A DNA stretch of 64,000 nt, taken from positions 4,410,469 to 4,474,468 of the forward strand of contig NZ_KI912613.1 in the NCBI RefSeq assembly GCF_000519325.1, read 5' to 3'. The position numbers and the translations under genes were made by a program. The notes under the pieces are model-generated. The model did no database searches. It saw nothing but the letters and a program-made list of their open reading frames with translations, and was not told where the DNA came from. Source of the DNA: Patulibacter minatonensis DSM 18081. GTDB lineage: Bacteria; Actinomycetota; Thermoleophilia; Solirubrobacterales; Solirubrobacteraceae. Positions 40,057 through 55,472 of the stretch are shown piece by piece (position 1 is the stretch's first letter; each line of letters starts with the position of its first letter).

Positions 40057-41352
40057 TCAGGTCGTGTACTCGGCGTTCAGCGTCACGTACTCGTGGCCGA
40101 GATCGCTGAAGTAGACCTCGGTCTCGTTCGCGAAGTCCTGGCCGGCCGACGCCGCCCCGAGCGTGATGTCGTACTCGACCTCGACGCCCCGGACGAGCGC
40201 CTCGAGCGCCGGGCGGTCGAAGACGACCTCCTGGCCGTCGCGGCAGACCTCGATCCCGGCGATCCGGACCCCGACGGGGTTCAGCGCCGGACCGGGCAGC
40301 ACGGCGCCGACGGCCTGGACGATGCGGCCCCAGTTCGGGTCGCCGCCGTAGAGCGCGGTCTTCACCAGCGGGCTGTTGGCGACCTGGCGGGCGACGCGCT
40401 CGCACGCCGGGCCGTCGGCACCGCGGACCGTCACGCGGCCGACGCGCCGGGCGCCCTCGCCGTCGGCGGTGATGAACAGGGCGAGCTGCCGCAGGAGCGC
40501 GTCGAGCGCGAGGCCGAAGCGCTGCTCGTCCGGCGTCCCGGGCTCGACGGCGACGCCGCTGGCGCCCGAGGCGATGAGGACCGCGGTGTCGGACGTCGAG
40601 AGCTGCCCGTCGACCGAGATCCGGTCGAACGAGCGCTTGACGCAGACGCCGAGGAGCAGGTCGGCGGTCTCCGCGGAGAGCTTCGCGTCCGTCGTGACGA
40701 AGCAGAGCATCGTCGCGAAGCTCGGCTGGATCATCCCCGCGCCCTTGCAGACGGCGTGGAGCGTGACCTCGCCGCCCTCCAGGGCGACGGTCAGGGTCGC
40801 CGTCTTCGGGAAGAGGTCGGTGGTCTCGATGCCGCGGCGGAAGTCGGCGTCGCCGTCCTCCGCCAGGGCCTCGCCCGCCGCCGCGACGCCCTGGGGCACG
40901 ACGTCCATCGGCAGCGGCACCCCGATCACGCCGGTGGCGCAGACGGCGACCCGGTCCTCGGCGACCCCGGAGGCCGCGGCGGCGGCCGCGCGCACCTGGC
41001 GGGCGGTCGTGAACCCGTCGCGGCCGGTCCCGGCGTTCGCGTTGCCGCTCGTGATCACGACGGCGCGCAGGGCGTCCAGGCGCGACTCGTCCTTCGTCAC
41101 GAGCACGGGCGGCGCCGCGGTCCCCGACCGGGTGAACCGCGCGGCCGACACGGCGTCGGGCGCGTCGCAGACCAGCAGCGCCACGTCGGTCCCGCCGGAC
41201 GGCTTGATCCCCGCGGCCACCCCCGCGGCGCGGAACCCCTTCGGCAGCCCGCGGTCGGCGACGCCGACGACCGAGTCCGGCACCTCGACCCATCGGGAGC
41301 GGAAGAACGGGGCGTCGGCGGGCGGGTTGGAGGAGGTCGCGGGCACGGACAT
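40057..41352 (-). CDS. argJ: Bifunctional glutamate N-acetyltransferase / ornithine acetyltransferase
   Basis: 431 residues. Transfers the acetyl group from acetylornithine to glutamate, giving the recycling arginine pathway. The autoproteolysis site is in KGAGMIQPSFATMLCFV, where the Thr becomes the new N-terminal nucleophile; alpha and beta chains follow. Other family motifs are FTRSGTAAPPVLVTKDE and ALYGGDPNWGRIVQAVG. ATG 41352 has TAGACT at 41367-41362, 9 nt upstream, so it has its own promoter after separation from argC by 13 kb. Confidence 0.97.
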   Translation of the reverse strand: MSVPATSSNPPADAPFFRSRWVEVPDSVVGVADRGLPKGFRAAGVAAGIKPSGGTDVALLVCDAPDAVSAARFTRSGTAAPPVLVTKDESRLDALRAVVITSGNANAGTGRDGFTTARQVRAAAAAASGVAEDRVAVCATGVIGVPLPMDVVPQGVAAAGEALAEDGDADFRRGIETTDLFPKTATLTVALEGGEVTLHAVCKGAGMIQPSFATMLCFVTTDAKLSAETADLLLGVCVKRSFDRISVDGQLSTSDTAVLIASGASGVAVEPGTPDEQRFGLALDALLRQLALFITADGEGARRVGRVTVRGADGPACERVARQVANSPLVKTALYGGDPNWGRIVQAVGAVLPGPALNPVGVRIAGIEVCRDGQEVVFDRPALEALVRGVEVEYDITLGAASAGQDFANETEVYFSDLGHEYVTLNAEYTT

Positions 41353-41419
41353 CGGGGGGCGAGTCTAGGCGGGCGGCCGCCGCGCGGCGGCCGGGTCCGA
41401 CGAACGGATCGCCCCGAAG

Positions 41420-41446
41420 CTCAAGGTTCGAGCCCGACCTGCCGAT
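41420..41446 (+). promoter_or_regulatory. Sigma-28-like promoter P1 of giant surface protein 1
   Basis: CTCAAG at 41420-41425, 15-nt spacer, GCCGAT at 41441-41446. Identical in both boxes and spacing to the elements at 41593 and 22561. It would give a leader of about 215 nt that includes the GAAA-loop hairpin at 41620-41633. Confidence 0.6.
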
Positions 41447-41592
41447 CGATGAGCACCCGTGCGCCCGTGCGCGCGACCGTCCCCCGGAGCAGCCGCGTCC
41501 CGCCGTCGCGTCTCGCCGTGGCGGTCCGCGGTCCGGGATCCGGCGCGACGGTCGGGATCCGACCGCTCGGTGCACGACGTCGCCACGAAGGG

Positions 41593-41619
41593 CTCAAGGT
41601 CCGGGCCGTCCGTGCCGAT
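41593..41619 (+). promoter_or_regulatory. Sigma-28-like promoter P2 of giant surface protein 1
   Basis: CTCAAG at 41593-41598, 15-nt spacer, GCCGAT at 41614-41619, 51 nt before the GTG start. P1 and P2 also share nearby sequence (AAG-GCTCAAGGT-CG-GCC), so they look like a local duplication. The expected start point lies in the GGGACGAAAGTCCC dyad. Confidence 0.65.
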
Positions 41620-41669
41620 GGGACGAAAGTCCCCTCGGGCGCGCGTGCGCCCGGACCCAGGAGCCCGCC

Positions 41670-44600
41670 GTGCCGTCCCGTCCCGCCCGTCGCCCAGCCG
41701 CCGTCGCGCTCGCCGCGGGCCTCGCCGCCGCCGGGGCGTTCGCGCCGTCCGCGCACGCCGGGGTCGTCGGTCCGGACGTCGTCCCCACCGTCGAGGGCCG
41801 GGGCACCGCCACGGGCGGCGGAGCGGCGCAGTTCGTCGTCCGGACCCGGAACGTCGGGACCGCCGCCACCTCCGGTCCCGTGGTGCTCGCGCTGTCCGGC
41901 CGTGCCGTCGCGTCGGCGGAGACCCCGGGGTGGACCTGCTCGGCGGACGACGCGTCGTCGGACTCCCGGACGTGCACGCTCGGCCGGGCGCTCGGTGCGG
42001 GCGAGTCCGCGCCGGACCTGACCGTACGGACGACGGCGGACGGCGACACGTCCTCGCGGGCCGAGCTGTCCGCCCGGGTGACCGCCGGGGGCGGCACCTC
42101 CTACCGCCCGAGCCTCGCGACGGTGCCGGTGCTCCCGGCCTCGCCCGTCGACGTCGGCCTGACCGCGACCGCGGCGCCGGCCCACCGCACCGGGGAGCGA
42201 CGTTACGCGCTCGTGGTGCAGAACGGTCCGGACGCCGCCACCTCGGCCCCGCTGGTCGTCACTGTCCCGCACAGAACGGGCGACCTGCCGCTCACGGCGC
42301 TGTCGGGCACGGGCTGGACCTGCGACCGGGCCGCGGCGCGATGCACGTACGCCGCGACGCTCGCCGCCGGTGCCGCCGCGCCGCCGATCGAAGCCCGGAC
42401 CACGCGCGCCAAGGTGCCCGAGGCCTGGGAGGAGCCCGCCGACGACGGGATCGCCGCGGTGCTCTCCGGCGGCGGGGACCCGGCGACGGACCGGGCCGAC
42501 GTCACCACCGCGACCGGGCCGTCGTCGTACGTCGACCTGACGCCCGTCGTCGACGATGCGGGCGCCGCCACGGGCGGCGCTCGACGCTTCTCGGTCCGCG
42601 TCCACGGGATCGGCCCGGCCGACAGCACCGGCGTGATCCGCGTCGCGTTCACGCGCGGGCCCACGGACGCGCTCGACACCGGCCTGCGCGCGAGCGGCGC
42701 CGGCTGGATCTGCGACCAGGGCACCTCGTCGTGCACCTACGCCGGGGTCGTGCCGTCCGACGGCGACTCCCCGCCCATCGAGGTGGTGACGCCGGCCGGT
42801 GGCGGAACGGCAGGGCCGAGCCTCATCGCCCGGGTCACGGGCGGGGGCGACGCCGGGAACGAGGGCGTCGGCCCGACGGGCAACAACAGCGGCACGGCCT
42901 CCGTGCCCCCGGTCGTCGGCGGTCTGGAGCTGCAGATGCGGGACCGGACGCCCGCGCTCCGCCCGCGCACCACCAGCGCGACCCTGCTGGCCCGCAACGT
43001 CGGGGCGGACGACACCACGCCGGTCGAGCTGCGGCTCTTCCTCGGCGACGCGCGCGGGGACGGCTGGACGTGCACGGGATACCGGCTCTGCCGGCACGCG
43101 CCGCTGCGGGCCGGTGAGTCCGCCGCACCCCTGCGGCTCACCGACGAGGTCCCCCTCGCCTCGCACACGTTTCCGTACGACGCCGGCTCGTTCGGCGCCT
43201 CGCTCTACGCGACGGCGCAGTCCCACGGGGACGTCGGGGTCGGGACCAGCACCGGGGTCGGTTCGACCGCCGCCGACCTGGCCGTCGAGGTCGCACCCGG
43301 CGCCGCGCCGACCGCCGGGGGCCCCGGCCGGTTCACCGTCGTCGCCCGCAACCGCTCCCCGAAGCCGCTCACGGAGCCCGTCACGGTCGCGATCGACCAC
43401 CGCGACGCCCCCGCCGCACGGATCACCGGCGACGCCTGGGTCTGCACCGAGCGCGACGAGTCCCGCACGAACTGCACGCACGCCGCACCGCTCGCCGCCG
43501 GATCGGCGCTGCCCGCCCTCGCGGTGGACTACGTCGCGCCGACGGCGGGCCGCGACGACCGCGTCGCCGTGACCGCGCACGCCTACGCGAAGGACGGCGC
43601 GCTGCAGGACCTCGACGCCGCGACGCGCGGAGCGACGGCGTCCGTGCCCGTCGTCGGGACGCCCGTGGACGCCGTCGTCACCGTGGAGGACCCGCGCCCG
43701 CAGGTCGGCCCCGCCCCCGGGACCGCGTCGCTCGTCGTGCGGAACGCCGGATCCCGCGCGGCGACCGGCCCGGTCCGACTGGAGCTCTCCGGCGGGCGCG
43801 GCGTCAGCGGCGACGGGTGGTCGTGCACGCGTCGCTGCGTGCACCCCGGCCCGTTGCCCGCGGGCGGCGCGCTGCCGCCGGTCGGCGTCCGCGTGACGCC
43901 GGACACCGACGACCCGACGACCACGAAGCTGTTCGCGCAGGTGGTCGCGCCGGGCGAGTCCCGCACCGGCAACGACGAGTCGATCCTCGCCATGCCGGCC
44001 GCGACCGACGCCCGCGGCCGCCGACTGGCCGTGTCCCTGCCGGCGGGCCCGATCGAGTCCGAGCGCGGCGACGCGATCACCGTCTCCGCCCGGGTCTCCG
44101 CGTCGGCGCCCGCCACCGAGCCCCTGTCGCTGGGCGCGACCGCCACGCCGGGACTCGTCGTCGAGGGCCTCGCCGCCCCCGGTCTCGTCTGCACCGACCC
44201 CACGACCTGCCGGTGGGAGAGCGGCCCCGCGGCGGGCGAGACCCGCGAGGTCGTGGTCCGCGCGCGGATCGCCGACGACGCGACGGGACCGCTCGCCCTC
44301 GGTCTGCGGGCGACGTCCGACGCGCCCGACGTCTCCCCCGGCACCGCGTCGCTGCGGGTGCTGCCGCGCGGGGCGGGCGCCGACCTCGCCGTCACGGCCG
44401 GGGACGCGCCGCCGGTCGCCCTCGGCGGGCGCTACGCGATGCCGCTCGTCGTCCGCAACGGCGGCACCGCCGACAGCCCCGGGCCGATCACGGTCTCCTA
44501 CGGCGCACCCGCCACCCCCGGCGCGGCGTTCCAGGCGTCCGGTCCCGGCTGGGACTGCGCCGAGCTGCGGCAGTGCGTCTGGGCCGGCGGCCTCGCGGCG

Positions 44601-47600
44601 GGCGGGACGCTCCCCGAGATCGTCGTCCGCAGGCGCCCGTTCGCGACGACGGTCAACGGCGGCGTCGAGCAGATCACCGCCACCGTGTCGGACGACGCCG
44701 ACACCGTCACGACCAACGACGCGGCCGAGGGCGCGGCCCGCGGGACCGGCGCCTCGGCGGCGGACCTCGCGATCAGCGCCACGCCTGCCGCCCCGTCCGT
44801 CAGCGACGCGCGCGGCACCTTCGACGTCCGGGTCCGCAACGTCGGCGGCCGGCCCACGACCGACCAGGTCGAGGTCGACGTCGACACCGGGACCCTCTAC
44901 GGCTCCCTCGACGAGCTGTCCGGGTCGATCGTGGCCGCGACCGGTGACGACTGGCGCTGCTCCGGACGCAGCGCGCGCTGCGTCCTGCTCCGGCCGCTGG
45001 CGGCCGGCGAGGAGGCACCGCCGCTGCGCACGTCGGTCCTCGCCCCCGGCTTCCCCGACGCGTCGCAGGCCACGGGCCGCGACCGCCTGACCTCGATCCG
45101 TGCGCAGGTCGCGGGCGGCGACCCCGACGGCTCGCGTTCCGACGACCGCGCCGTCGCCGGCAGCGGCGTGCGACTCGCCCCCGGACCCGATCTGGTCCCC
45201 TCGGTGGGCGCCGCCGACGTCGCGGACGCGAGCGGCACCGCGACGTTCGAGGTCCGCATCACGAACGCCGGCACGGCACCGACCACGAACGGCGTCCAGG
45301 TCGACTACGGCGACAACGGCCTGGGCGCGCGGCCGCACGACGCCGCCGGTGACGGCTGGTACTGCCCGGGCGTCCTCGGCGGCCGCGGCAACGAGGGGCA
45401 CTGCACCCTCGACCACGAGCTCGCGCCCGGCGAGACCGCGCCGGTCCTCCACGTCTCGTCCGACCACGACGCCCGCGACGACGCCGACCGGATCCGGCAG
45501 GACGTCCGGGTCACCGGCGACGACGGCGGCTGGACGGCCAACGACGCGGTGACGGCCTACGCCCCGGTCCGTCCCACCGGCGCCGGCCCGCAGCTCGTCG
45601 CGAGCGTCGACCAACTGGCGCCCGGCCGGGTCGGGACGCCTGTCGCCGGTCGCGTGCGCGTCCGCAACGTCGGTGACCTGCCGGCGGTGGCCGCGGTCCG
45701 CGTCGACGTCGAGACCGGTACGGGCGGCGACGTCACCGGGCCGGGATGGACCTGCACGGCGCTCCAGGCCGGGGTCTCCCGCTGCGCCCGGCCCGGCCCG
45801 CTGCTCCCGGGTGCCGAGGCTCCCGCCCTCCGGGCCACGGCGGCGACGCCCCCGAAGGGCCGCACGACCGACGTCGCCCTCCGCGCCGGGGTCGTCGCGC
45901 CGATCGGCGACGTCGGTGCGTTCTCCGGCGGCTTCGTCGCTGCGTCGGCCACGAAGCCCGGCGGGGTCCCCGCCGCGCTCGGCGTGCTGCTGACCGGAGG
46001 ACACCCGCTGCGTCCGGGCGGCTCGACCACCGCCACCGCCGTCGTCCACAACACCGGGGGTGCCGCGTTCCCCGGCGACGTCACCGTGACGCTCGGCGCC
46101 ACGCACGGCACCGTCGACGCCTCCGACCCCGGAGACGGCTGGACGTGCGGGACCGACCGTCGCTGCGTGCACGGCGGACCCGTCGCGCCGGGGGCGGACC
46201 TGCCACCGATCGGCCTGACGGTCACCGCGCCCCGCGGGCCCGCGTCGGCCGGGACGACCGAGGTCACCGCATCGCTGCCGCCCGCGGGCTCTCCGGCCGC
46301 CGCGGACGACTGGTCGACCCACGACGACGAGGCCGTGGTCCAGGTGGGCGTCGGCGACGGTCCGACGGACCTCGTCGCCCGGATCGTCCCGGAGGCCCCG
46401 CCGGTCCGCGGGGCGACCGCCTCGGTCCTCGTGCACGTCCAGAACACCGGACCGGTCCCGGCGGCCGCGGACACCGTCCTGACGCTGACCTCGTCGGTGC
46501 CGGGCGCACGTGCCGAGGGCGACGGCTGGTCCTGCGACGGGCTGCGCTGCACGCATCCCGGCCCCGTCGCCGGCGGCGCGTTCCTGAAGACCGTCCGCCT
46601 GACCGCCCCGGTCCCGGGCGACGCACCCCGTGACGCGATGTCCGTCACCGCGTCGGTCGTGAACGCGGACGACGACGCGACCGGCAACGACGCGTCCCGC
46701 TGGAGCACCGGCATCACCGGCGCCCCGTCCGACGGCGGCGTCGCGGCGTCGCCCTACTACGCCGTCGCGTCGGCACGTGCACGGGTGCTCGCCGGCGAGA
46801 CCGGGCCGTTCCAGCTCGCCCTGAGCGGCATCGCCCCGATCGCCGGCGAGGAGGGGACCGTCGTCGCGATCCTGCCCGAGGGCCTGACCTACGCGGGCGG
46901 CCCGAGCGGCGCCCCGGCCCCCCAGGTCGACGGCCGGCGGCTCACCTGGCGGGTCCGGTTCCCGGACGAGGGGGCCGACGCGGTGGTCCCGTTCGACGTC
47001 GCGATCGACCGGACGGTGCGACCCGGGTCCCTGCCGATCGAGACCACGATGACGTCCGACGCGCTCGCGTCGCGCCAGCGCCGCACGGGCGCGGTGGAGG
47101 TCACGGACGCGCCGGCCCAGGTGACCGGGGTCGCCCCGAGAGCGTTCGACGACGCCGCGCCCACGACGGTCGCGTTCTCGGGCGACCTGCTCCGCGACCG
47201 CGACGTCTTCGAGCTCGTCTCCGGGAGCACCGTGCTCCGGGCCTCCGCCCAGACGGGCGACGACCACGTGGTCACGGGGACCGTCGACCCGCGTGGTGTC
47301 GCCCCGGGTGTCTACGACGTCGTGGTCCGCCGCGCGGTCGGCGGCACCCTCACGCTGCCCGGCGCGGTCACGATCAGCGCGGCGCCGAAGCAGCCGGACC
47401 CGCCCGCCGACCCGGGCAGCGGCGGGGGCGGCACGCCCGCTCCGGGCGGCGGGACGACGGGGCCCGACACCGGAGGCGGTTCGACGACGACCCCGACGAC
47501 CGACCCGGCGGCGGCCCTGGCAGCGCTGCTCGCCGGCCTGGGCGCGCAGACCCCGAAGCCGGCGCCCGCGCCCGCCGCACCGGGCGCCGCCCCCGTCGCC

Positions 47601-47945
47601 GCGAGGGTCGCGTTCTCGGGCACCCCGCGCGCGCCCCGGACCGCGGCGCTGGCCCGCTCCGGCTGGCTCGTCTCCGTGCGCACCACCACCGCCACCGCGA
47701 TCCGCGCCGACCTGACCGCGGACGCCACCACCGCCAAGCGCCTCCGACTCCGCCGCGGAACCGTCCTCGCGACCACCACCACCGGCCCCCACCTCGCAGG
47801 CACCGTCCGCCTCCGACTCCGCGTACCCACCGCCCTGCGCACGAAGGTCCGCCGAGCCAACCGCATCACCGGCACACTGCAGGTCCGATCGATCTCCTCG
47901 ACCGGCCCCGCGAGCACGAAGCGCCGGGTGACGATCCGCCGCTGA
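41670..47945 (+). CDS. Giant secreted repeat protein 1 (13 cysteine-paired Ig-like modules)
   Basis: 2091 residues, GTG with AGGAG ribosome site. Signal peptide AAVALAAGLAAAGAFA ending AHAG. The body is 13 modules of ~125 residues with the motif G-x-G-W-x-C-x(4-15)-C-x-(H/Y/L)-x-x-x-L-x-x-G-x-x-x-P-x-L, as in GWTCDRAAARCTYAATLAAG and GWSCTRRCVHPGPLPAGG. This pattern resembles CARDB/DUF11-like adhesin folds. Module 7 has lost the Trp. A cysteine-free module, an IPT/TIG-like domain (~1815-1904), a Pro/Gly/Thr linker and a basic C-terminal domain ending RRVTIRR follow. No LPXTG or C-terminal anchor. Probably a filamentous surface or matrix protein (inference). It lies between argC and argJ on the opposite strand. 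Confidence 0.85.
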   Translation: MPSRPARRPAAVALAAGLAAAGAFAPSAHAGVVGPDVVPTVEGRGTATGGGAAQFVVRTRNVGTAATSGPVVLALSGRAVASAETPGWTCSADDASSDSRTCTLGRALGAGESAPDLTVRTTADGDTSSRAELSARVTAGGGTSYRPSLATVPVLPASPVDVGLTATAAPAHRTGERRYALVVQNGPDAATSAPLVVTVPHRTGDLPLTALSGTGWTCDRAAARCTYAATLAAGAAAPPIEARTTRAKVPEAWEEPADDGIAAVLSGGGDPATDRADVTTATGPSSYVDLTPVVDDAGAATGGARRFSVRVHGIGPADSTGVIRVAFTRGPTDALDTGLRASGAGWICDQGTSSCTYAGVVPSDGDSPPIEVVTPAGGGTAGPSLIARVTGGGDAGNEGVGPTGNNSGTASVPPVVGGLELQMRDRTPALRPRTTSATLLARNVGADDTTPVELRLFLGDARGDGWTCTGYRLCRHAPLRAGESAAPLRLTDEVPLASHTFPYDAGSFGASLYATAQSHGDVGVGTSTGVGSTAADLAVEVAPGAAPTAGGPGRFTVVARNRSPKPLTEPVTVAIDHRDAPAARITGDAWVCTERDESRTNCTHAAPLAAGSALPALAVDYVAPTAGRDDRVAVTAHAYAKDGALQDLDAATRGATASVPVVGTPVDAVVTVEDPRPQVGPAPGTASLVVRNAGSRAATGPVRLELSGGRGVSGDGWSCTRRCVHPGPLPAGGALPPVGVRVTPDTDDPTTTKLFAQVVAPGESRTGNDESILAMPAATDARGRRLAVSLPAGPIESERGDAITVSARVSASAPATEPLSLGATATPGLVVEGLAAPGLVCTDPTTCRWESGPAAGETREVVVRARIADDATGPLALGLRATSDAPDVSPGTASLRVLPRGAGADLAVTAGDAPPVALGGRYAMPLVVRNGGTADSPGPITVSYGAPATPGAAFQASGPGWDCAELRQCVWAGGLAAGGTLPEIVVRRRPFATTVNGGVEQITATVSDDADTVTTNDAAEGAARGTGASAADLAISATPAAPSVSDARGTFDVRVRNVGGRPTTDQVEVDVDTGTLYGSLDELSGSIVAATGDDWRCSGRSARCVLLRPLAAGEEAPPLRTSVLAPGFPDASQATGRDRLTSIRAQVAGGDPDGSRSDDRAVAGSGVRLAPGPDLVPSVGAADVADASGTATFEVRITNAGTAPTTNGVQVDYGDNGLGARPHDAAGDGWYCPGVLGGRGNEGHCTLDHELAPGETAPVLHVSSDHDARDDADRIRQDVRVTGDDGGWTANDAVTAYAPVRPTGAGPQLVASVDQLAPGRVGTPVAGRVRVRNVGDLPAVAAVRVDVETGTGGDVTGPGWTCTALQAGVSRCARPGPLLPGAEAPALRATAATPPKGRTTDVALRAGVVAPIGDVGAFSGGFVAASATKPGGVPAALGVLLTGGHPLRPGGSTTATAVVHNTGGAAFPGDVTVTLGATHGTVDASDPGDGWTCGTDRRCVHGGPVAPGADLPPIGLTVTAPRGPASAGTTEVTASLPPAGSPAAADDWSTHDDEAVVQVGVGDGPTDLVARIVPEAPPVRGATASVLVHVQNTGPVPAAADTVLTLTSSVPGARAEGDGWSCDGLRCTHPGPVAGGAFLKTVRLTAPVPGDAPRDAMSVTASVVNADDDATGNDASRWSTGITGAPSDGGVAASPYYAVASARARVLAGETGPFQLALSGIAPIAGEEGTVVAILPEGLTYAGGPSGAPAPQVDGRRLTWRVRFPDEGADAVVPFDVAIDRTVRPGSLPIETTMTSDALASRQRRTGAVEVTDAPAQVTGVAPRAFDDAAPTTVAFSGDLLRDRDVFELVSGSTVLRASAQTGDDHVVTGTVDPRGVAPGVYDVVVRRAVGGTLTLPGAVTISAAPKQPDPPADPGSGGGGTPAPGGGTTGPDTGGGSTTTPTTDPAAALAALLAGLGAQTPKPAPAPAAPGAAPVAARVAFSGTPRAPRTAALARSGWLVSVRTTTATAIRADLTADATTAKRLRLRRGTVLATTTTGPHLAGTVRLRLRVPTALRTKVRRANRITGTLQVRSISSTGPASTKRRVTIRR

Positions 47946-48060
47946 GGCCGACGACCTCCCGACCGTCGGATTGAGCGTCTGGGCGCCACGGCCTGTGGGA
48001 GGATGCCCGCAACCTCGCCGGTGTGCGCCGCTCGAGGAGCCGCATCGTCCCAGGAGTCCC

Positions 48061-51000
48061 GTGCGCCCGCCAACGATCCGTCCGTTCCGGTCAGCCCACA
48101 CCAGGGCGCTGCTCGTCGGCTTCCTGCTCGTCCCGATCGGGGCGCAATCAACAGCCGACGGCGCGGTCGTCGGGCCGGACGTCGTCGTGTCGGTGGCGCC
48201 TGACGGGCCGGTGGAGCGCGGAGCGATCGCCACGTTCCGGATCGCGGTGCGCAACGTCGGGACGGGCCGCACGACCAGTCCCCCGGTCGTCGAGATCGAC
48301 GCCCAGACCCCGGAGCAACCCACGACCGCCGACGGTGACTCGTGGTCGTGCACCGGCGTCGCAGGGGCGCCGACCAGGTGCACCTACGCTCGAACCCTGG
48401 GAGCGGGAGAGTCCGCGTCGATCCTGCAGGTCCGCAGGCGCGACGCCCGGCGTTCCGACGCAGGCGTCGGGCACGTGTCGGTCGCCGCGAAGGTCGTCGC
48501 GGGCGACGACGGTCCCGTCTACGTCGGCGGAAGCACGGCACAGTCGCCCCGTGTCTCCTCGTCACTCGTCGACCTCGGGATGACCGTCTCGGCGACACCC
48601 GCAGGCCGGACCGGACCACGTCGATTCCGCGTCCGCGTCCGCAACGGGGACGGAGCTGCCACGACGGCCCCCTTCGCCGTCGAGTTCCCGCGGGGCTCGG
48701 ACGCTCCGCCGCTGGAGGCCGCGGGTTCGGGATGGCGATGTGACGATGCCAGGGCGACCTGCACGCACGACGGGATCCTCGCCGCCGGGGAGAGCGCGTC
48801 GCCGCTCGACGTCACCGTCACGCTGGCGACACCCCTGCTGGACGCGTCACGGGACGGCCTGACGGCGACCCTCACCGGCGGCGGCGACGACGGCAGCGAG
48901 CGGGGGTTCGCGTCGGCCGCCGAGGACCGCGCCTCGACGCCGCGGTTGCCACGGTCCTTCACCGATCTCGTCACGACGATCTCCGCCGCGGACACGAACC
49001 CGGGCGCCGACCCGCGCTACGTGGTGCGTGTCCACGCCGTCGGTCCCGCGCCGAGCACGGGACCTATCAGCGTGCGGCTCGGCCGGGGCTGGGGGTCGAT
49101 GATCGATCCGACGGTCCGAGCGGCAGGCGCGGGCTGGATCTGCACCGCGGCGGACGGCACCTGCACGACCGTCGCAAGGATCGACGCCGGGGCGACCGCT
49201 CCGCCCCTCGTGGTGACCGTCCCCGCCGGCGCGGGTCCGCCCGGTCCTGCCCTGACCGCGAGCGTCGCCGGAGGGGGTGACGACGCTCCGGACTCAACGT
49301 CCGACCTCGACAACGACCGCAGCAGCATCACGACGGCGGCACCCGAGGCACGCTCGGCAGGTCATCTCGACCTCTCGATCCCAGAACCCGTCCCGCTGAC
49401 CGTCGGAGGGCGGCCGACGTGGCAGATCTCCGTGCGCAATCCGACCACCGGGTCGGGGGATCCCCCGGTCGTCCGGGTCGACGCTCCGTTCTCGGCGACG
49501 GCGAGGGGAGACGGATGGACGTGCACGCGAGCGCTCGTCTGCCGACGTGCGAACGCCGTCGCTCCGGGCGACGACGTCCCACCGATCAGCGTCTCCATGG
49601 AGGTTCCGGTCAGTACGGCGATCGGGGCCGCGACGGTGAACGCGATCGCCGATTCCGCGCCAGGGGTCGCGACGTCGACCACCACGGGCATCGGCTCGTC
49701 GGTCGGCGCACTGGACATCAAGCTCACGTCGGACGGGCCGCTGCTCCGCGGCGAGCGTGCCCGGCTGGCCGCCCGGGTCGTCAACCCAGCGCCGGTCGAC
49801 GTCGCGGGGCCGGTCACGGTCGCCCTCAGGCGTCTCGGGTCCGCATCGACGTTCACCGGCGACGGCTGGGCGTGCACGGACGGCGAGTCCGGGACGACGT
49901 ACTGCACCCACGAGGGCCCCGTGCCCGCCGGCGGGACACTTCCGACGGTCGACGTCGCGTTCACGGCTCCCCCCGCCGACACTGTCGCGGTCGCCACGTC
50001 GGCGTCGGTCCACGCGGTCCCGGGCGCGGTACGGGGCGGAGGTGCGACCGCCTCCCTGTCCTTGCCGGTGATCGGCTCGCCGGCGGACCTGACGATCACG
50101 GCCGAAGGTCCTGAGCCGCAGGTCGGACCGGATCTCGGCACGGCGCTGCTCGTGGTCCGCAACCGGGGGGTCCGTGCCGCCCGCGGGCCGGTGTCCGTCA
50201 CCGCGACCGAAGGTCGGCTCCTCGGTGGCGACGGGTGGCAGTGCGGGCGGAGATGCGTCCATCCGGGCCCCGTGCCCGTGGACGGCGCCCTTCCTCCGCT
50301 TCGCGCGGAAGCGTCGAACCCGGCGTCGACCGGCTTCACGTCCGTCGGCATCTCCGCGACCGTCTCCGGTCCCGACGACGCCACGACCGTCAACTCCACC
50401 GCCCGAGCCACGTTCCCGGCAGCGACGGACGCTCGCGGTCGGCAGATCTTCGCCTCGCTCCCGCGTTCGGCCCAGGGCGATCGCGACACGACCCTCGAGC
50501 TCCCTCTCCGGGTCGACGCCCCGACCCTCACCTCCGAGTCGGTCGATCTCGCGGTGACCGCACCACCAGGCATCGTCGTCGAGGACATCACGGGACCCGA
50601 TGTCTCCTGCTCCTCGAGCCTGCGCTGCAGGTGGGCACGAAGTGCGACAGCCGTCCGGACCCTCGACGCGACGGTCCGCGTCCGGCTCCTCTCCGACGCC
50701 GTCGGCCCCCTGGACCTCGATGTCCGCGCGTCGACCGGCACGGCGGACGTGACGCCCGGAAGGGCGACGACCCGCGTCGTGCCCCGGGGATCCGGGGCCG
50801 ATCTCGCGATCGCCGTCGGTGACGCGATCCGACGGCCTACGGGGGCGACCCCGACACCCGTCGTCGTCCGCAACGGAGGATCGGCCGACCACAACGGGCC
50901 CGTCGCGGTCTCGTTCGGGTCGACGTCGTCGAGTTCGAACGGGCTCTCCCCATCGGGTGCCGGCTGGGTCTGCGAGACCAACGGTACGAGTTGCACCCAC

Positions 51001-54000
51001 CCGGGTCCTGTCCGCGCCGGATCCGTCCTGCCCGAGATCACCGTCCGCGCCGACTACATTGGGTTCGCCGTCGGTGGCATCGTGCCGCTCACCCCGACGG
51101 TCGAAGGTGCCGAGGACACCGTCTCCACGAACGACCGGGCCGAGGCCGCCGTGCGCGTGACCGGCGCGGCCGAGGCCGATCTCGCCGCGTCCGCGGAACC
51201 GACCGGCCGGATCCTGAACGGGCGCGACGCCGAGTTCGTGTTCCGCGTCCGCAACGTCGGCGGTCGGCCGACGACCGAGCAGGTCGATGTCGATGTCGAC
51301 GCCGGTCTCACGTTCGACCCCGCGACCACCACCACGACGATCGTCGCCCGGGGCGAGGAGTGGCGCTGCTCCGGCCGGGACATGCGGTGCGCGCTTCTTC
51401 GGCCGCTCGCACCGGGAGAGGAGGCACCCGCGCTGCGTGCCGTCGTTAGCGTCCCGGCGTTCCCGGACGCCGCACGGTCCGTCTCCCGTCCGCGCGCCGG
51501 CGCCACGCTGACCATTCGCCACGGAGAGCCGGCCGGGATGACGTCGAACAACGTGGCCGCGGCCGAGTCGGGAGCCGCACCGACCACCGCTTCGGACGTC
51601 GTGACGGCCGTCAACGCCGACGGTCCTGTGCCTCCGGACGGACCGGCGTCGTTCTCGGTCCGGGTCGGGAACGTCGGCACCGAGACGACGACCGCCCCCG
51701 TGGAGATGGACCTCAGCACGTTCAGCGACGAAGCCCGCACCGTGACCGCCCGGGGTGACGGATGGTTCTGCCCCAGGGGCTCGCTCGTCTGCCGTCTCGA
51801 TGGCGCCCTGGAGGCCGGTGCGACGGCGCCCGACGTCCACGTCCTGGTGATCGACGACGTGGGTCGGCGGAGCGGCGAGGTCGAACTCCGTGCGCGGGCG
51901 ACCGGGGACGACGGCGGTTGGACCGGCAACAACGCCGGCTCGGCGACGTCGGTCGTCCGCAAGTCGGGGGCCGGCCCCCGCACCGTGACCTGGATCCAGG
52001 ATCTGCGGCCCGGAACCGTAGAGACCCGGCCGACCGCATCGGTGCGGGTGCTCAACGCCGGCGACGCGATCGATCCCGGACCCATCAGGGTAGACGTCGA
52101 CGCGCGGCTCAGCGACGGCGGGACGGTACTGGCGCCCGGCTGGACCTGCGCCGGCAACCGCTTCGGAGGGCGGGTCTGCACCCACGACGGCCCGCTCGGC
52201 CCCGGATCCGAACTGCCCGCGATCGTCCTCACCGGCCCTCGGCCTGAGCAGGGCGTCTCGTCCCCTACGACGTTCCTCGCCGGCGTCACCCGCCCGGGGG
52301 ACATCCCCCTCACCGACGGTGCCGTCAGCGCCGCAACGACGAGCCCCGGCCGCGCGCCGGCGTCCCTCGGGGTCTCCCTCGCCGGAGCCCGCCCGTCCCT
52401 TCCGGGAGAGACGGTCCGTTCCGTCGCGACGGTCCGGAACGCGGGTGCCACCGCATTCGGCGGCCAGGTCGTCCTGAACCTGAGCCACCCCTCCGCAGCA
52501 GCGATCTCCTCGGGAGACGGCTGGACGTGCACCGAGGCTGCGGATCGGTGCACCCGTCCCGGCCCGGTCCTGCCCGGCGAGGAATTGCCGCCGGTCCACA
52601 TCGACGTCACGACCCCCCGCCTGAACGGCCGGAGCTCGGGCACTGTCGGTGTCGCCCTCCCGCAGCGAACGGAACCGGGTGCTGCCGACGACTGGTCGAT
52701 GCACGACAACGTCGCGGTGGTGACGTCGGGCAGGGGCGGCGGCCTGACCGATCTCGTGGCCCGTGTCGCGTCCGAGACGCCCCCGGCAGCCGGAGGGACC
52801 GCTTCGACGCTCATCCGGGTGACGAACGCCGGAACCGAGACCGCGAACGCGCCGACGAGCGTGACACTCACCTCGTCTCTCCCGGGCTCACAGGTGTCCG
52901 GCGCCGGGTGGACCTGCGAGCAGCTCCGTTGTTCCCGCAACGGCCCCGTGGAGCCGGGGCAGACCCTCGACGTCCTCCGACTGCTCACGCCCGTGCCCAC
53001 CGACGCAGGACGGGTCCCCCTCGTCATCGGCAGCACGATCGCCAACGGCGAGGACGACGCGAAGGCGAACGACACGGCGCGGTGGAGCACCGGGATCACA
53101 GGGGCGCCTGCCGACCTCGGAGTCCTCGCGTCGCCGTACCTGTCGGTGGCACCGGTGCCGGGGCGGGTGGCACCGGGCGAGACTGCACCGGTCCGGCTCG
53201 CGGTACGGGGCATCGGGCCGCTGTCCGGCGCCGATACCGTCGTGGAGACGGTTCTCCCGGAGGACGTCGAATACGCGGGCGCATCGTCAGGCGACGCGGC
53301 ACCCGAGGTCGACGGCCGGCGTCTGACCTGGACGCTCCGCGCTCCTGCGGAGGGGACCACCACAGTCGTGGAGTTCGATGCGCGAGTCTCACCGGGTGCC
53401 CCTGCCGGGACCCGCTCGATCACCTCGACGCTGCGCTCGGACGCCCTCGCCTCGACTCAGCGGCGCACCGATGCGCTGACGATCGCGCGACCGGCGTTGT
53501 CCGACGTCACGCCGGCGACGTTCAAGAACGACGCTCCGGCCGAGATCGCCTTCCACGGTTCGGTCCTGCGTGCCGCCGACGACCTCGTGCTCGAGCGCGG
53601 TGGGCTCCGGCTCACCGGCACCGGAGCTTCGGGAGATGATCGGGAGGTCACGGCCACGTTCGACCCGAGGGGCGCACCCGCGGGGGACTACGACGCGGTC
53701 GTCCTACGCCGGGACGGCTCGACGTTGAGGCTGTCGCGGGCCGTCGCGATCACCGGTGACCCGGGGCCGACGACCCATGAGCCCCCGAGCACGACGACGG
53801 CCACCGGCCCGACGTCGACTGCCACGCCAGGGGGCGGAACGTCCGGCCCGACGGTTCCGCCGGCCGACGTCGCTGGACTGCTGGAGACCCTCGGTTTCCG
53901 GCCACCGGCACCCGTGCTCCCCGTGACTGCCCCTCCCCACACCACCGGGACGCTGCGATTCGTGGGCACCCCCCGTCCGCCACGGGCGGCGGCCCTCGTC

Positions 54001-54291
54001 CGCTCCGGCTGGTCGGTCCGGGTTCGTGTCCCCGCGGTGACCGGGATCCGGGCCGCGATGCTCGCCGACGCTGTTTCCGCCCGCCGCCTCAAGGTCCGCA
54101 CCGGGACGATCCTGGCGACCTCGGCTGTCGGGCCGCGACGGGCCGGCGAGCACCGCCTGCGCCTTCGGGTCCCCGCCGCGCTCCGAGCGAAGGTCAGACG
54201 CTCGCCGCGGACGGCCGGAACGCTCCGGATCCTGACGACGGCCGAGGACGGTACGGCGTTCGTCTCGAGGCGGGTGATCGTCCGGCGCTGA
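48061..54291 (+). CDS. Giant secreted repeat protein 2 (paralogue of the gene at 41670)
   Basis: 2076 residues from GTG 48061, with an AGGAG site 5 nt upstream. The signal peptide is LLVGFLLVPIGAQSTADG, and the mature start AVVGPDVVVSV matches its neighbour (GVVGPDVVPTV). Thirteen cysteine-paired modules align one-to-one with protein 1: module 6 GWQCGRRCVHPGPVPVDG, module 9 EWRCSGRDMRCALLRPLAPG, and module 7 degenerate again. A TIG-like domain, Pro/Thr/Gly linker and basic tail (SRRVIVRR) complete it. Codon choice looks less strictly GC-ending than in protein 1. Only 115 nt separates the genes and no sigma-28-like box was found there, so it may depend on read-through. Confidence 0.85.
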   Translation: MRPPTIRPFRSAHTRALLVGFLLVPIGAQSTADGAVVGPDVVVSVAPDGPVERGAIATFRIAVRNVGTGRTTSPPVVEIDAQTPEQPTTADGDSWSCTGVAGAPTRCTYARTLGAGESASILQVRRRDARRSDAGVGHVSVAAKVVAGDDGPVYVGGSTAQSPRVSSSLVDLGMTVSATPAGRTGPRRFRVRVRNGDGAATTAPFAVEFPRGSDAPPLEAAGSGWRCDDARATCTHDGILAAGESASPLDVTVTLATPLLDASRDGLTATLTGGGDDGSERGFASAAEDRASTPRLPRSFTDLVTTISAADTNPGADPRYVVRVHAVGPAPSTGPISVRLGRGWGSMIDPTVRAAGAGWICTAADGTCTTVARIDAGATAPPLVVTVPAGAGPPGPALTASVAGGGDDAPDSTSDLDNDRSSITTAAPEARSAGHLDLSIPEPVPLTVGGRPTWQISVRNPTTGSGDPPVVRVDAPFSATARGDGWTCTRALVCRRANAVAPGDDVPPISVSMEVPVSTAIGAATVNAIADSAPGVATSTTTGIGSSVGALDIKLTSDGPLLRGERARLAARVVNPAPVDVAGPVTVALRRLGSASTFTGDGWACTDGESGTTYCTHEGPVPAGGTLPTVDVAFTAPPADTVAVATSASVHAVPGAVRGGGATASLSLPVIGSPADLTITAEGPEPQVGPDLGTALLVVRNRGVRAARGPVSVTATEGRLLGGDGWQCGRRCVHPGPVPVDGALPPLRAEASNPASTGFTSVGISATVSGPDDATTVNSTARATFPAATDARGRQIFASLPRSAQGDRDTTLELPLRVDAPTLTSESVDLAVTAPPGIVVEDITGPDVSCSSSLRCRWARSATAVRTLDATVRVRLLSDAVGPLDLDVRASTGTADVTPGRATTRVVPRGSGADLAIAVGDAIRRPTGATPTPVVVRNGGSADHNGPVAVSFGSTSSSSNGLSPSGAGWVCETNGTSCTHPGPVRAGSVLPEITVRADYIGFAVGGIVPLTPTVEGAEDTVSTNDRAEAAVRVTGAAEADLAASAEPTGRILNGRDAEFVFRVRNVGGRPTTEQVDVDVDAGLTFDPATTTTTIVARGEEWRCSGRDMRCALLRPLAPGEEAPALRAVVSVPAFPDAARSVSRPRAGATLTIRHGEPAGMTSNNVAAAESGAAPTTASDVVTAVNADGPVPPDGPASFSVRVGNVGTETTTAPVEMDLSTFSDEARTVTARGDGWFCPRGSLVCRLDGALEAGATAPDVHVLVIDDVGRRSGEVELRARATGDDGGWTGNNAGSATSVVRKSGAGPRTVTWIQDLRPGTVETRPTASVRVLNAGDAIDPGPIRVDVDARLSDGGTVLAPGWTCAGNRFGGRVCTHDGPLGPGSELPAIVLTGPRPEQGVSSPTTFLAGVTRPGDIPLTDGAVSAATTSPGRAPASLGVSLAGARPSLPGETVRSVATVRNAGATAFGGQVVLNLSHPSAAAISSGDGWTCTEAADRCTRPGPVLPGEELPPVHIDVTTPRLNGRSSGTVGVALPQRTEPGAADDWSMHDNVAVVTSGRGGGLTDLVARVASETPPAAGGTASTLIRVTNAGTETANAPTSVTLTSSLPGSQVSGAGWTCEQLRCSRNGPVEPGQTLDVLRLLTPVPTDAGRVPLVIGSTIANGEDDAKANDTARWSTGITGAPADLGVLASPYLSVAPVPGRVAPGETAPVRLAVRGIGPLSGADTVVETVLPEDVEYAGASSGDAAPEVDGRRLTWTLRAPAEGTTTVVEFDARVSPGAPAGTRSITSTLRSDALASTQRRTDALTIARPALSDVTPATFKNDAPAEIAFHGSVLRAADDLVLERGGLRLTGTGASGDDREVTATFDPRGAPAGDYDAVVLRRDGSTLRLSRAVAITGDPGPTTHEPPSTTTATGPTSTATPGGGTSGPTVPPADVAGLLETLGFRPPAPVLPVTAPPHTTGTLRFVGTPRPPRAAALVRSGWSVRVRVPAVTGIRAAMLADAVSARRLKVRTGTILATSAVGPRRAGEHRLRLRVPAALRAKVRRSPRTAGTLRILTTAEDGTAFVSRRVIVRR

Positions 54292-54301
54292 GTTCCGACG
54301 G

Positions 54302-54356
54302 GCACCGGAGGCGGCGAGCGACGGGCGACACCGTCCGGTGCGGCCCGCGGCTCGCC
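54302..54356. terminator. Competing hairpins between giant protein 2 and argC
   Basis: GCACCGGA/TCCGGTGC (54302-54309 with 54334-54341) and GGCGAGC/GCTCGCC (54313-54319 with 54350-54356) overlap between two convergent genes. Either could end transcription; assignment is from position and pairing only. Confidence 0.4.
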
Positions 54357-54386
54357 GTGTCGACGTGGCGCGGACAGCGCACCCCC

Positions 54387-55472
54387 TCAGCCCGTGAGCC
54401 CCTCGTCCTCCGGCCGTCCGAACGCCGCGTTCAGCGCCTGGACGGCCTGGCTCGAGGTGCCCTTCCAGAGGTTGTCGATCGTCGCGAAGACCAGGACGTG
54501 GCCCGAGCGGGGATCGACGGTGGTGCGGATGCGGGCGACGTTGGACGCCTGGACGTCGCGCATGCCGGGCTCGGCGGTCGTCAGCTCGACGAACGGCTCG
54601 CCCTCGTAGGCCTCGCGGAAGAGGTCGGCGACCTCGTCGGCCGTGACGGGGCGGGTCGCCCGCACGTAGGCGGAGATCAGCTCGCCCTGGTCGACCGGCA
54701 CGAGGTGCGGGACGAACACGGGCTGCACCGACTCCCCCATGCCCAATGCGCCGAGCTCCTGGCGGATCTCCGGCTGGTGCCGGTGGCCTGCGACGCCGTA
54801 GGCGTGCACGTTCTCGGACACGTCGACGTAGTGCGTCGTCCGCGCGAGCTTACGGCCGGCGCCGGAGACGCCGGTCTTCGCGTCGACGATCACGTCCTGG
54901 AGCAGTCCGGCGCGGGCCAACGGCGCGAGGCCGAGGATCGTCGCGGTCGGGAAGCAGCCGGGCATCGCGATGATCCGCCCGCCCTCGCGGACGCCGGCGA
55001 GCGCCTCGCGGTGGAGCTCGGGCAGGCCGTAGACCGCGGTCCCGAAGAGCTCGGGTGCGACGTGGACGTCGCCGTACCACTCGCGGTACGTCGCGGGATC
55101 GCGCAGCCGGAAATCGGCCGACAGGTCGACGACGACGAGGCCCTGCGCGTGCATGGCGGCGACGGCCTCCGACGACGCGCCGTGCGGGTAGCCGACGATC
55201 GCGACGTCGTGGGTCGACCCGATCCGGTCGAGGTCGGGCTCCGTCAGCGCGATCGGCACGCGGTGGTGCGGGTAGAGCTCGTCCAGCCGCATCCCGGCCT
55301 CGGCCCGGGCGGTGATCTCCCCGAGCGCGAAGTACGGGTGGCGGTGCACGAGCCGCGCCGCGAGCGCGCCGGCGAACCCGGACGCGCCGAGCACGGCGAC
55401 GCGCGGGCGCGCCGCTCCGCGGGCGGGCGGCGTCCCGTCGTAGGCGACCCCGAAGGCCACGTTGTCAGCCAC
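54387..55472 (-). CDS. argC: N-acetyl-gamma-glutamyl-phosphate reductase
   Basis: 361 residues. NADPH-dependent reduction in arginine synthesis. NADP-binding VAVLGASGFAGALAARLV lies at about 24-41, the active-site Cys is in IIAMPGCFPTATILGL, and the family motif GVSGAGRKLARTTHYVDVSE follows. A ~22-residue N-terminal extension precedes the Rossmann fold. GTG 55472 follows the pheT stop by 56 nt. argC is separated from argJ by the two giant plus-strand genes, so the ancestral argCJBD operon is broken here. Confidence 0.96.
   Translation of the reverse strand: MADNVAFGVAYDGTPPARGAARPRVAVLGASGFAGALAARLVHRHPYFALGEITARAEAGMRLDELYPHHRVPIALTEPDLDRIGSTHDVAIVGYPHGASSEAVAAMHAQGLVVVDLSADFRLRDPATYREWYGDVHVAPELFGTAVYGLPELHREALAGVREGGRIIAMPGCFPTATILGLAPLARAGLLQDVIVDAKTGVSGAGRKLARTTHYVDVSENVHAYGVAGHRHQPEIRQELGALGMGESVQPVFVPHLVPVDQGELISAYVRATRPVTADEVADLFREAYEGEPFVELTTAEPGMRDVQASNVARIRTTVDPRSGHVLVFATIDNLWKGTSSQAVQALNAAFGRPEDEGLTG

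Follow-up and report, generated by a model that had tools for sequence, protein, structure and literature searches.

Genes A and B, two adjacent reading frames in a 64,000-nucleotide (nt) stretch of the Patulibacter minatonensis DSM 18081 genome (contig NZ_KI912613.1, positions 4,410,469 to 4,474,468; hereafter the window), are most probably tandem paralogues of one genus-level surface-protein gene, produced by copying of the whole gene on this lineage and encoding what would be a secreted, disulfide-stapled rod. The genome is a single contig of 5.52 Mb, and the GC (guanine plus cytosine) content of the window is 71-79%. The two genes lie head to tail on the plus strand (A at 41670-47945, the open reading frame, or ORF, of B at 47971-54291), and codon-position GC identifies both frames as coding, with third-position GC (GC3) of 0.95 in A and 0.86 in B. 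The ORFs encode 2091 and 2106 residues (aa), the latter counted from 47971, and BLASTP of A against B returned a single colinear alignment that runs end to end over 2078 columns with 42% identity and 4% gaps. This agrees with the initial annotation, which was made from the DNA letters and had proposed a colinear tandem duplication of a protein with 13 cysteine-paired modules: a module profile finds 13 modules in A and 13 in B, in the same order, followed in both by a cysteine-free segment 14, as annotated. The single degenerate module that had been described is likewise in the same place in both proteins (module 7), but it is less degenerate than supposed, as only the tryptophan of the WxC motif is lost and both cysteines are present.

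The order of events was examined by cutting both proteins into their 13 modules and comparing all with all. Modules at the same position in A and B share a mean identity of 41.1% (range 31-52%), compared with 24.5% for off-position A-B pairs, 25.4% within A and 22.9% within B. The best match of a module lies at the same position in 24 of 26 cases, as the initial annotation had expected, and the WxC motifs of matching modules are at most 20 residues apart in position; this pattern is not a chance outcome. In a maximum-likelihood module tree, A and B pair at 12 of 13 positions, the exception being module 1, and the A and B labels require the maximum of 13 changes. Clustering by protein, the outcome that the annotation had set against its own proposal, was not seen. 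The A-B pairing at all positions but one shows the array to be older than the gene duplication, and the annotated sequence of array first and whole-gene duplication second is upheld by both the identities and the tree. The sequences of the two copies have since drifted apart, but no module has been gained, lost or moved.

Relatives of the pair are few. The only other match in the P. minatonensis genome was to a canonical DUF11 protein. Within the genus, the gene is carried by two further genomes, G007 and G003, adjoining argC in both and argJ as well in G007; the remaining genomes of the genus gave no match to the array gene, and G005 matched only through the other DUF11 protein. Beyond the genus, 29 genomes sampled from the family yielded no match across the array and two short partial matches, and two contig scans with peptide seeds found no relative, the seeds being too specific for so divergent a gene. 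The G007 orthologue has 11 modules, with a contig gap in the linker that splits the gene over two contigs, while that of G003 shows nine modules (5-13 by position) before the contig ends on the 5' side. A tree of all 46 modules from A, B, G007 and G003 recovers cross-species groups for positions 2, 3, 7, 12 and 13 (weakly for position 3), in which A and B are sisters. Concatenation of the modules places A and B together against G007 and G003 with support of 100/100, and the part comprising module 14, the TIG-like domain and the linker does so with 94/96. Where the tree is resolved, the congener modules also sort by position; with A and B as sisters, this puts the duplication on the P. minatonensis lineage. 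By this comparison, the common ancestor with the two congeners already possessed such an array, odd module 7 included. The further claim that no repeat shuffling followed is true between A and B, but the 11 modules of the G007 orthologue, in place of 13, indicate that array changes do occur in the family.

The duplication is old, as four-fold degenerate sites of A and B are nearly saturated (43.5% identical versus 39.7% expected at saturation). The longest identical DNA run between them is at most 18 nt, nucleotide identity is even along the genes, and there is no sign of recent gene conversion. The array also evolves fast, since identity to the G007 counterparts is 94% for the flanking protein ArgJ and 89% for ArgC, while the array proteins share 34-38% between congeners (about 35-38% against G007). 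The initial annotation had considered the stability of module order unusual, and here our analysis departs from it. Repeat number in surface proteins varies most when the repeats resemble one another most closely, and adjacent domains of large multidomain proteins are as a rule less than 50% identical (PMC8201768); most human protein repeats conserve unit number and order over long times (PMC3995336). A stable order is to be expected between A and B because modules that are about 25% identical give little substrate for repeat recombination.

The modules themselves can be assigned to a known type. Pfam identifies only module 14 of B as DUF11 (E 8e-10, 39.5 bits against a cut-off of 24.6), and hhalign of the 26 modules with the DUF11 modules of the same genome gave a probability of 95.9 (E 5.8e-9). 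CLIPPER is the new name of DUF11, a stalk domain of surface proteins that typically occurs in tandem arrays (PMC12617251). The structure predicted for module 2 of B is an immunoglobulin (Ig)-like sandwich with a predicted local distance difference test score (pLDDT) of 83; the model covers a single module, as the tandem-pair alignment was poor in its second half. The first Foldseek match of the model was 9IFR, a CLIPPER domain, which in VIA-align also ranked first, level with integrin chains (Z 10.4, root-mean-square deviation 2.9, 115 residues aligned), and the model has the CnaA-like Ig beta-sandwich. Other results fit this assignment less well: modules 1-13 of A and B fall below the Pfam DUF11 cut-off (PF01345), the Z scores of integrin and adaptin Ig-like chains differ from that of 9IFR by less than 1, and the Foldseek TM-scores are modest, at about 0.5. 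A sequence search of solved structures gave no match. On profile and predicted fold together, the module is a divergent DUF11/CLIPPER-type Ig-like beta-sandwich. The TIG-like domain noted initially is supported by fold only (model residues 126-214; plexin A4 IPT domain, Z 11.0, root-mean-square deviation 2.0, 85 aligned; EBF1, Z 10.8), as it has no Pfam TIG match.

CLIPPER domains often carry a Lys-Asn isopeptide bond with a nearby Asp, although not universally (PMC12617251), and these residues were not found in the 26 modules of A and B. The column of the isopeptide Lys is hydrophobic (V, A, I, L or M) in 26 of 26, and lysine is nearly absent throughout the modules (7 in A and 4 in B per about 1650 residues). 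The aligned Asp column is non-acidic in all 26, a result that depends on the alignment because modules 9, 10 and 11 have an Asp one residue earlier. The Cys pair is present in every one of the 26 modules, and in the model the two cysteines lie on neighbouring strands, 58-61 and 66-69, a placement that would suit a hairpin disulfide.

A comparison with known systems shows both the likeness and the disparities. With DUF11/CLIPPER proteins (PF01345, 9IFR), A and B share the Ig-like sandwich, tandem arrays in long secreted proteins, the DL start and the RN-G motif, and a Cys pair is also found in the DUF11 modules of this genome; they differ in the hydrophobic residue at the isopeptide Lys and in having one Cys pair in every module. 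The DUF11 protein encoded between rplL and rpoB in the same genome (L008 5785-10710, minus strand) has the same domain type, Cys pair and basic C-terminus. Unlike A and B, it has about 5-7 modules readily called DUF11, with Lys and Asp present in three of five, a different N-terminal part and a single gene in the ribosomal/RNA polymerase cluster. Genes for such DUF11 surface proteins (about 1500-1650 aa) also occupy the rplL-rpoB interval of G005 and of G003 and adjoin rplL in G007, further loci being L026 2354-7306, L027 1332-6128 and L028 1-4482. Periscope proteins (PMC8201768) resemble A and B as surface rods of tandem folded domains, but their near-identical repeats of varying number contrast with modules that are 23-25% identical within each protein and number 13 in both copies; rapid length variation is not seen between A and B. 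As its modules are a divergent version of a surface domain already known from bacteria, the pair is a tidy but largely ordinary case.

Several observations sit poorly with a whole-gene copy made on this lineage. Module 1 of A and that of B are unpaired in the two-gene tree, the 46-module tree joins B to G007 at module 4, the tree of the C-terminal domain is without resolution, and at the C-terminus G007 and B are 72% identical, more than the 56% between A and B. Furthermore, G007 and G003 are drafts in which both genes touch contig ends, and a single copy there is likely but not proven. The proximity of B to G007 at the C-terminus and module 4, along with the difference in GC3, could reflect introgression, with B (or A) being a diverged allele from another lineage that recombined beside the resident copy; this is improbable, as A and B are sisters relative to both congeners in the modules and in the 14+TIG part, and outside the genus no donor-like gene was seen among 31 family genomes. 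The signal is mixed at the C-terminus and in modules 1, 3 and 4, and the congener genes reach contig ends, as might also be seen if the duplication predated the G007/G003 split, one copy having been lost there or missed in the drafts and partial gene conversion mimicking the sisterhood of A and B. The strong support for A+B in the modules and the 14+TIG part, the evenness of nucleotide identity with no long identical run, and the failure to find a second copy elsewhere in these two draft genomes make such an older duplication quite improbable. Tandem-repeat surface genes often expand or homogenise their repeats independently (PMC8201768), but nothing found here favours this for A and B, and with tree and identity matrix both grouping modules by position and not by protein we reject it as vanishingly improbable.

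The placement of A and B at the cell surface is subject to a different alternative, namely that they are binding proteins released to the medium, or structural proteins of the cell wall, rather than surface stalks. Like fibrillar adhesins, they are long and apparently secreted and have a tandem Ig-like stalk (13+1 modules after a signal-peptide-like start), but Pfam and NCBIfam recognised no adhesive domain in either protein and no sortase-type anchor was recognised, the proteins ending in RRVTIRR (A) and RRVIVRR (B) without an LPXTG-like end. These absences lean towards the alternative, as does the occurrence of the basic C-terminal domain, present in all copies, at the end of a 508 aa protein from another genus that otherwise has a different sequence (L052 1498-3021, E 2e-7). 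On the other side, tandem DUF11/CLIPPER arrays are typical of stalks (PMC12617251), and a C-terminal domain that is conserved and placed after a disordered linker would suit envelope retention; from its distribution this domain may be a general surface-retention domain. We therefore consider a non-stalk role unlikely, if still worth weighing.

Under the preferred reading of A and B as tandem paralogues encoding surface rods, both proteins would be exported by the Sec pathway, and their 14 Ig-like domains would stack into a long rod in which 13 domains are stapled by a disulfide where canonical CLIPPER domains have an isopeptide bond. The rod might then be held at the cell surface by the TIG-like domain, the flexible linker and the basic C-terminal domain, and could serve there as a stalk or coat, perhaps adhesive, contacting the environment. 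Module order has remained stable because neighbouring modules differ too much to recombine.

The coordinates of the features of both genes and their flanks are collected in Table 1. The likely start of B is GTG 48061, which stands four bases 3' of AGGAG and precedes a signal-peptide-like stretch, rather than the ORF opening. Protein A contains exactly 26 cysteines, all in the 13 pairs; the B ORF contains 28, two of which (residues 12 and 18) precede the likely start, and the remaining 26 form 13 pairs. The longer start is disfavored because it only adds two cysteines outside the pair pattern. Rfam at curated scores identified no RNA family in the whole window, and in the leader of A it returned chance-level matches only.

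Table 1. Features of genes A and B and their surroundings (positions in the window).
Feature	Position	Strand	Remarks
argJ	40057..41352	-	flank, strand opposite to A/B
CTCAAG-N15-GCCGAT box 1 upstream of A	41420..41446	+	putative, sigma-28/WhiG-like
CTCAAG-N15-GCCGAT box 2	41593..41619	+	putative, sigma-28/WhiG-like; ends 50 nt before A start
Gene A, predicted secreted modular protein, 2091 aa	41670..47945	+	GTG start; AGGAG at 41659-41663
A, signal-peptide-like N-terminus	41670..41759	+	ends AHA; read by eye, without a predictor
A, modules 1-13	41769..46736	+	one Cys pair each
A, module 7	44013..44375	+	W of WxC lost, both Cys present
A, module 14, DUF11-like	46737..47111	+	Cys-free; from alignment with B
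A, TIG/IPT-like domain	47112..47384	+	limits approximate
A, P/G/T-rich linker	47385..47597	+	low pLDDT
A, basic C-terminal domain	47598..47942	+	
Gene B from likely start	48061..54291	+	AGGAG at 48052-48056; ORF opens 47971
B, modules 1-13	48172..53118	+	one Cys pair each
B, module 7	50434..50793	+	W lost, both Cys present
B, module 14	53119..53487	+	Cys-free; Pfam DUF11 match
B, TIG/IPT-like domain	53488..53750	+	from alignment with A; end approximate
B, basic C-terminal domain	53941..54288	+	
argC	54387..55472	-	flank, strand opposite to A/B

The pair occupies the junction between argC and argJ, in reversed orientation relative to both. The array gene is found at this junction (window 41353-54386; L064-L069) in P. 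minatonensis (G000), G003 and G007. In G005 the junction is empty, with argC and argJ 143 nt apart, and other inserts lie between the two genes in G001, G002, G004 and G006 (in the last across two contigs). In G001 they include a PadR-like regulator among several genes; G004 has a small gene of antitoxin-like type, and G006 has other secreted-protein genes. As it is empty or differently filled across the genus, the argC-argJ junction is a variable insertion site in the arginine cluster.

Upstream of A are two boxes of the form CTCAAG-N15-GCCGAT. The genome has four sites of the pattern TCAAG-N15-GCCGATNG, against none in the reversed control: two sites lie upstream of A, one lies at the start of a secreted-protein gene, and the fourth is about 94 nt before a prepilin-peptidase-like gene (named from its sequence; no NCBIfam match) that is followed by pilus-like genes. 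The loci of the sites outside the window are L009 4009 and L010 4178, and the box pattern has two matches in a viral collection. The flagellar cluster (L043-L047, genome 3.50-3.58 Mb) carries boxes of the form CTCAAG-N14-GCCGATCA; eight N14 boxes occur genome-wide, all ending in GCCGATCA, and seven of them are in this cluster. Flagellar sigma-28 promoters were rejected as an identity for the boxes upstream of A, which have N15 and GCCGATCG / GCCGATGG rather than N14-GCCGATCA. A separate WhiG-type class of box upstream of A is possible, and we treat such a promoter as a lead only because spacing and end differ from the flagellar boxes and a search in front of the G007 orthologue turned up no good box. 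A predicted hairpin upstream of A (z -3.0) was set aside and not used because it spans the putative promoter.

Two strong FliA/WhiG-type sigma genes are present in the genome (4594717-4595397 and 3582969-3583628, both on the minus strand), one in the flagellar cluster and the other beside a recombinase-like gene. A WhiG-type sigma factor of Rubrobacter that is controlled by cyclic di-GMP reportedly drives the genes for type IV pili, and the same pair of regulators is present in Thermoleophilia such as Patulibacter (PMC8325347). A more elaborate picture, which we regard as rather doubtful, would make A and B twin CLIPPER-type rods of equal length and different faces, with disulfides in place of isopeptide bonds throughout and with tandem WhiG-type promoters shared with pilus genes, possibly under cyclic di-GMP control.

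Taken together, A and B would provide a clean record, left by nature, of the evolution of a multi-domain rod in bacteria, one in which sequence changes fast, yet the number of modules, their paired cysteines and the position of the odd module survive duplication of the whole gene. The pair also makes it possible to test whether CLIPPER-type stalks can be stapled by disulfides instead of isopeptide bonds.

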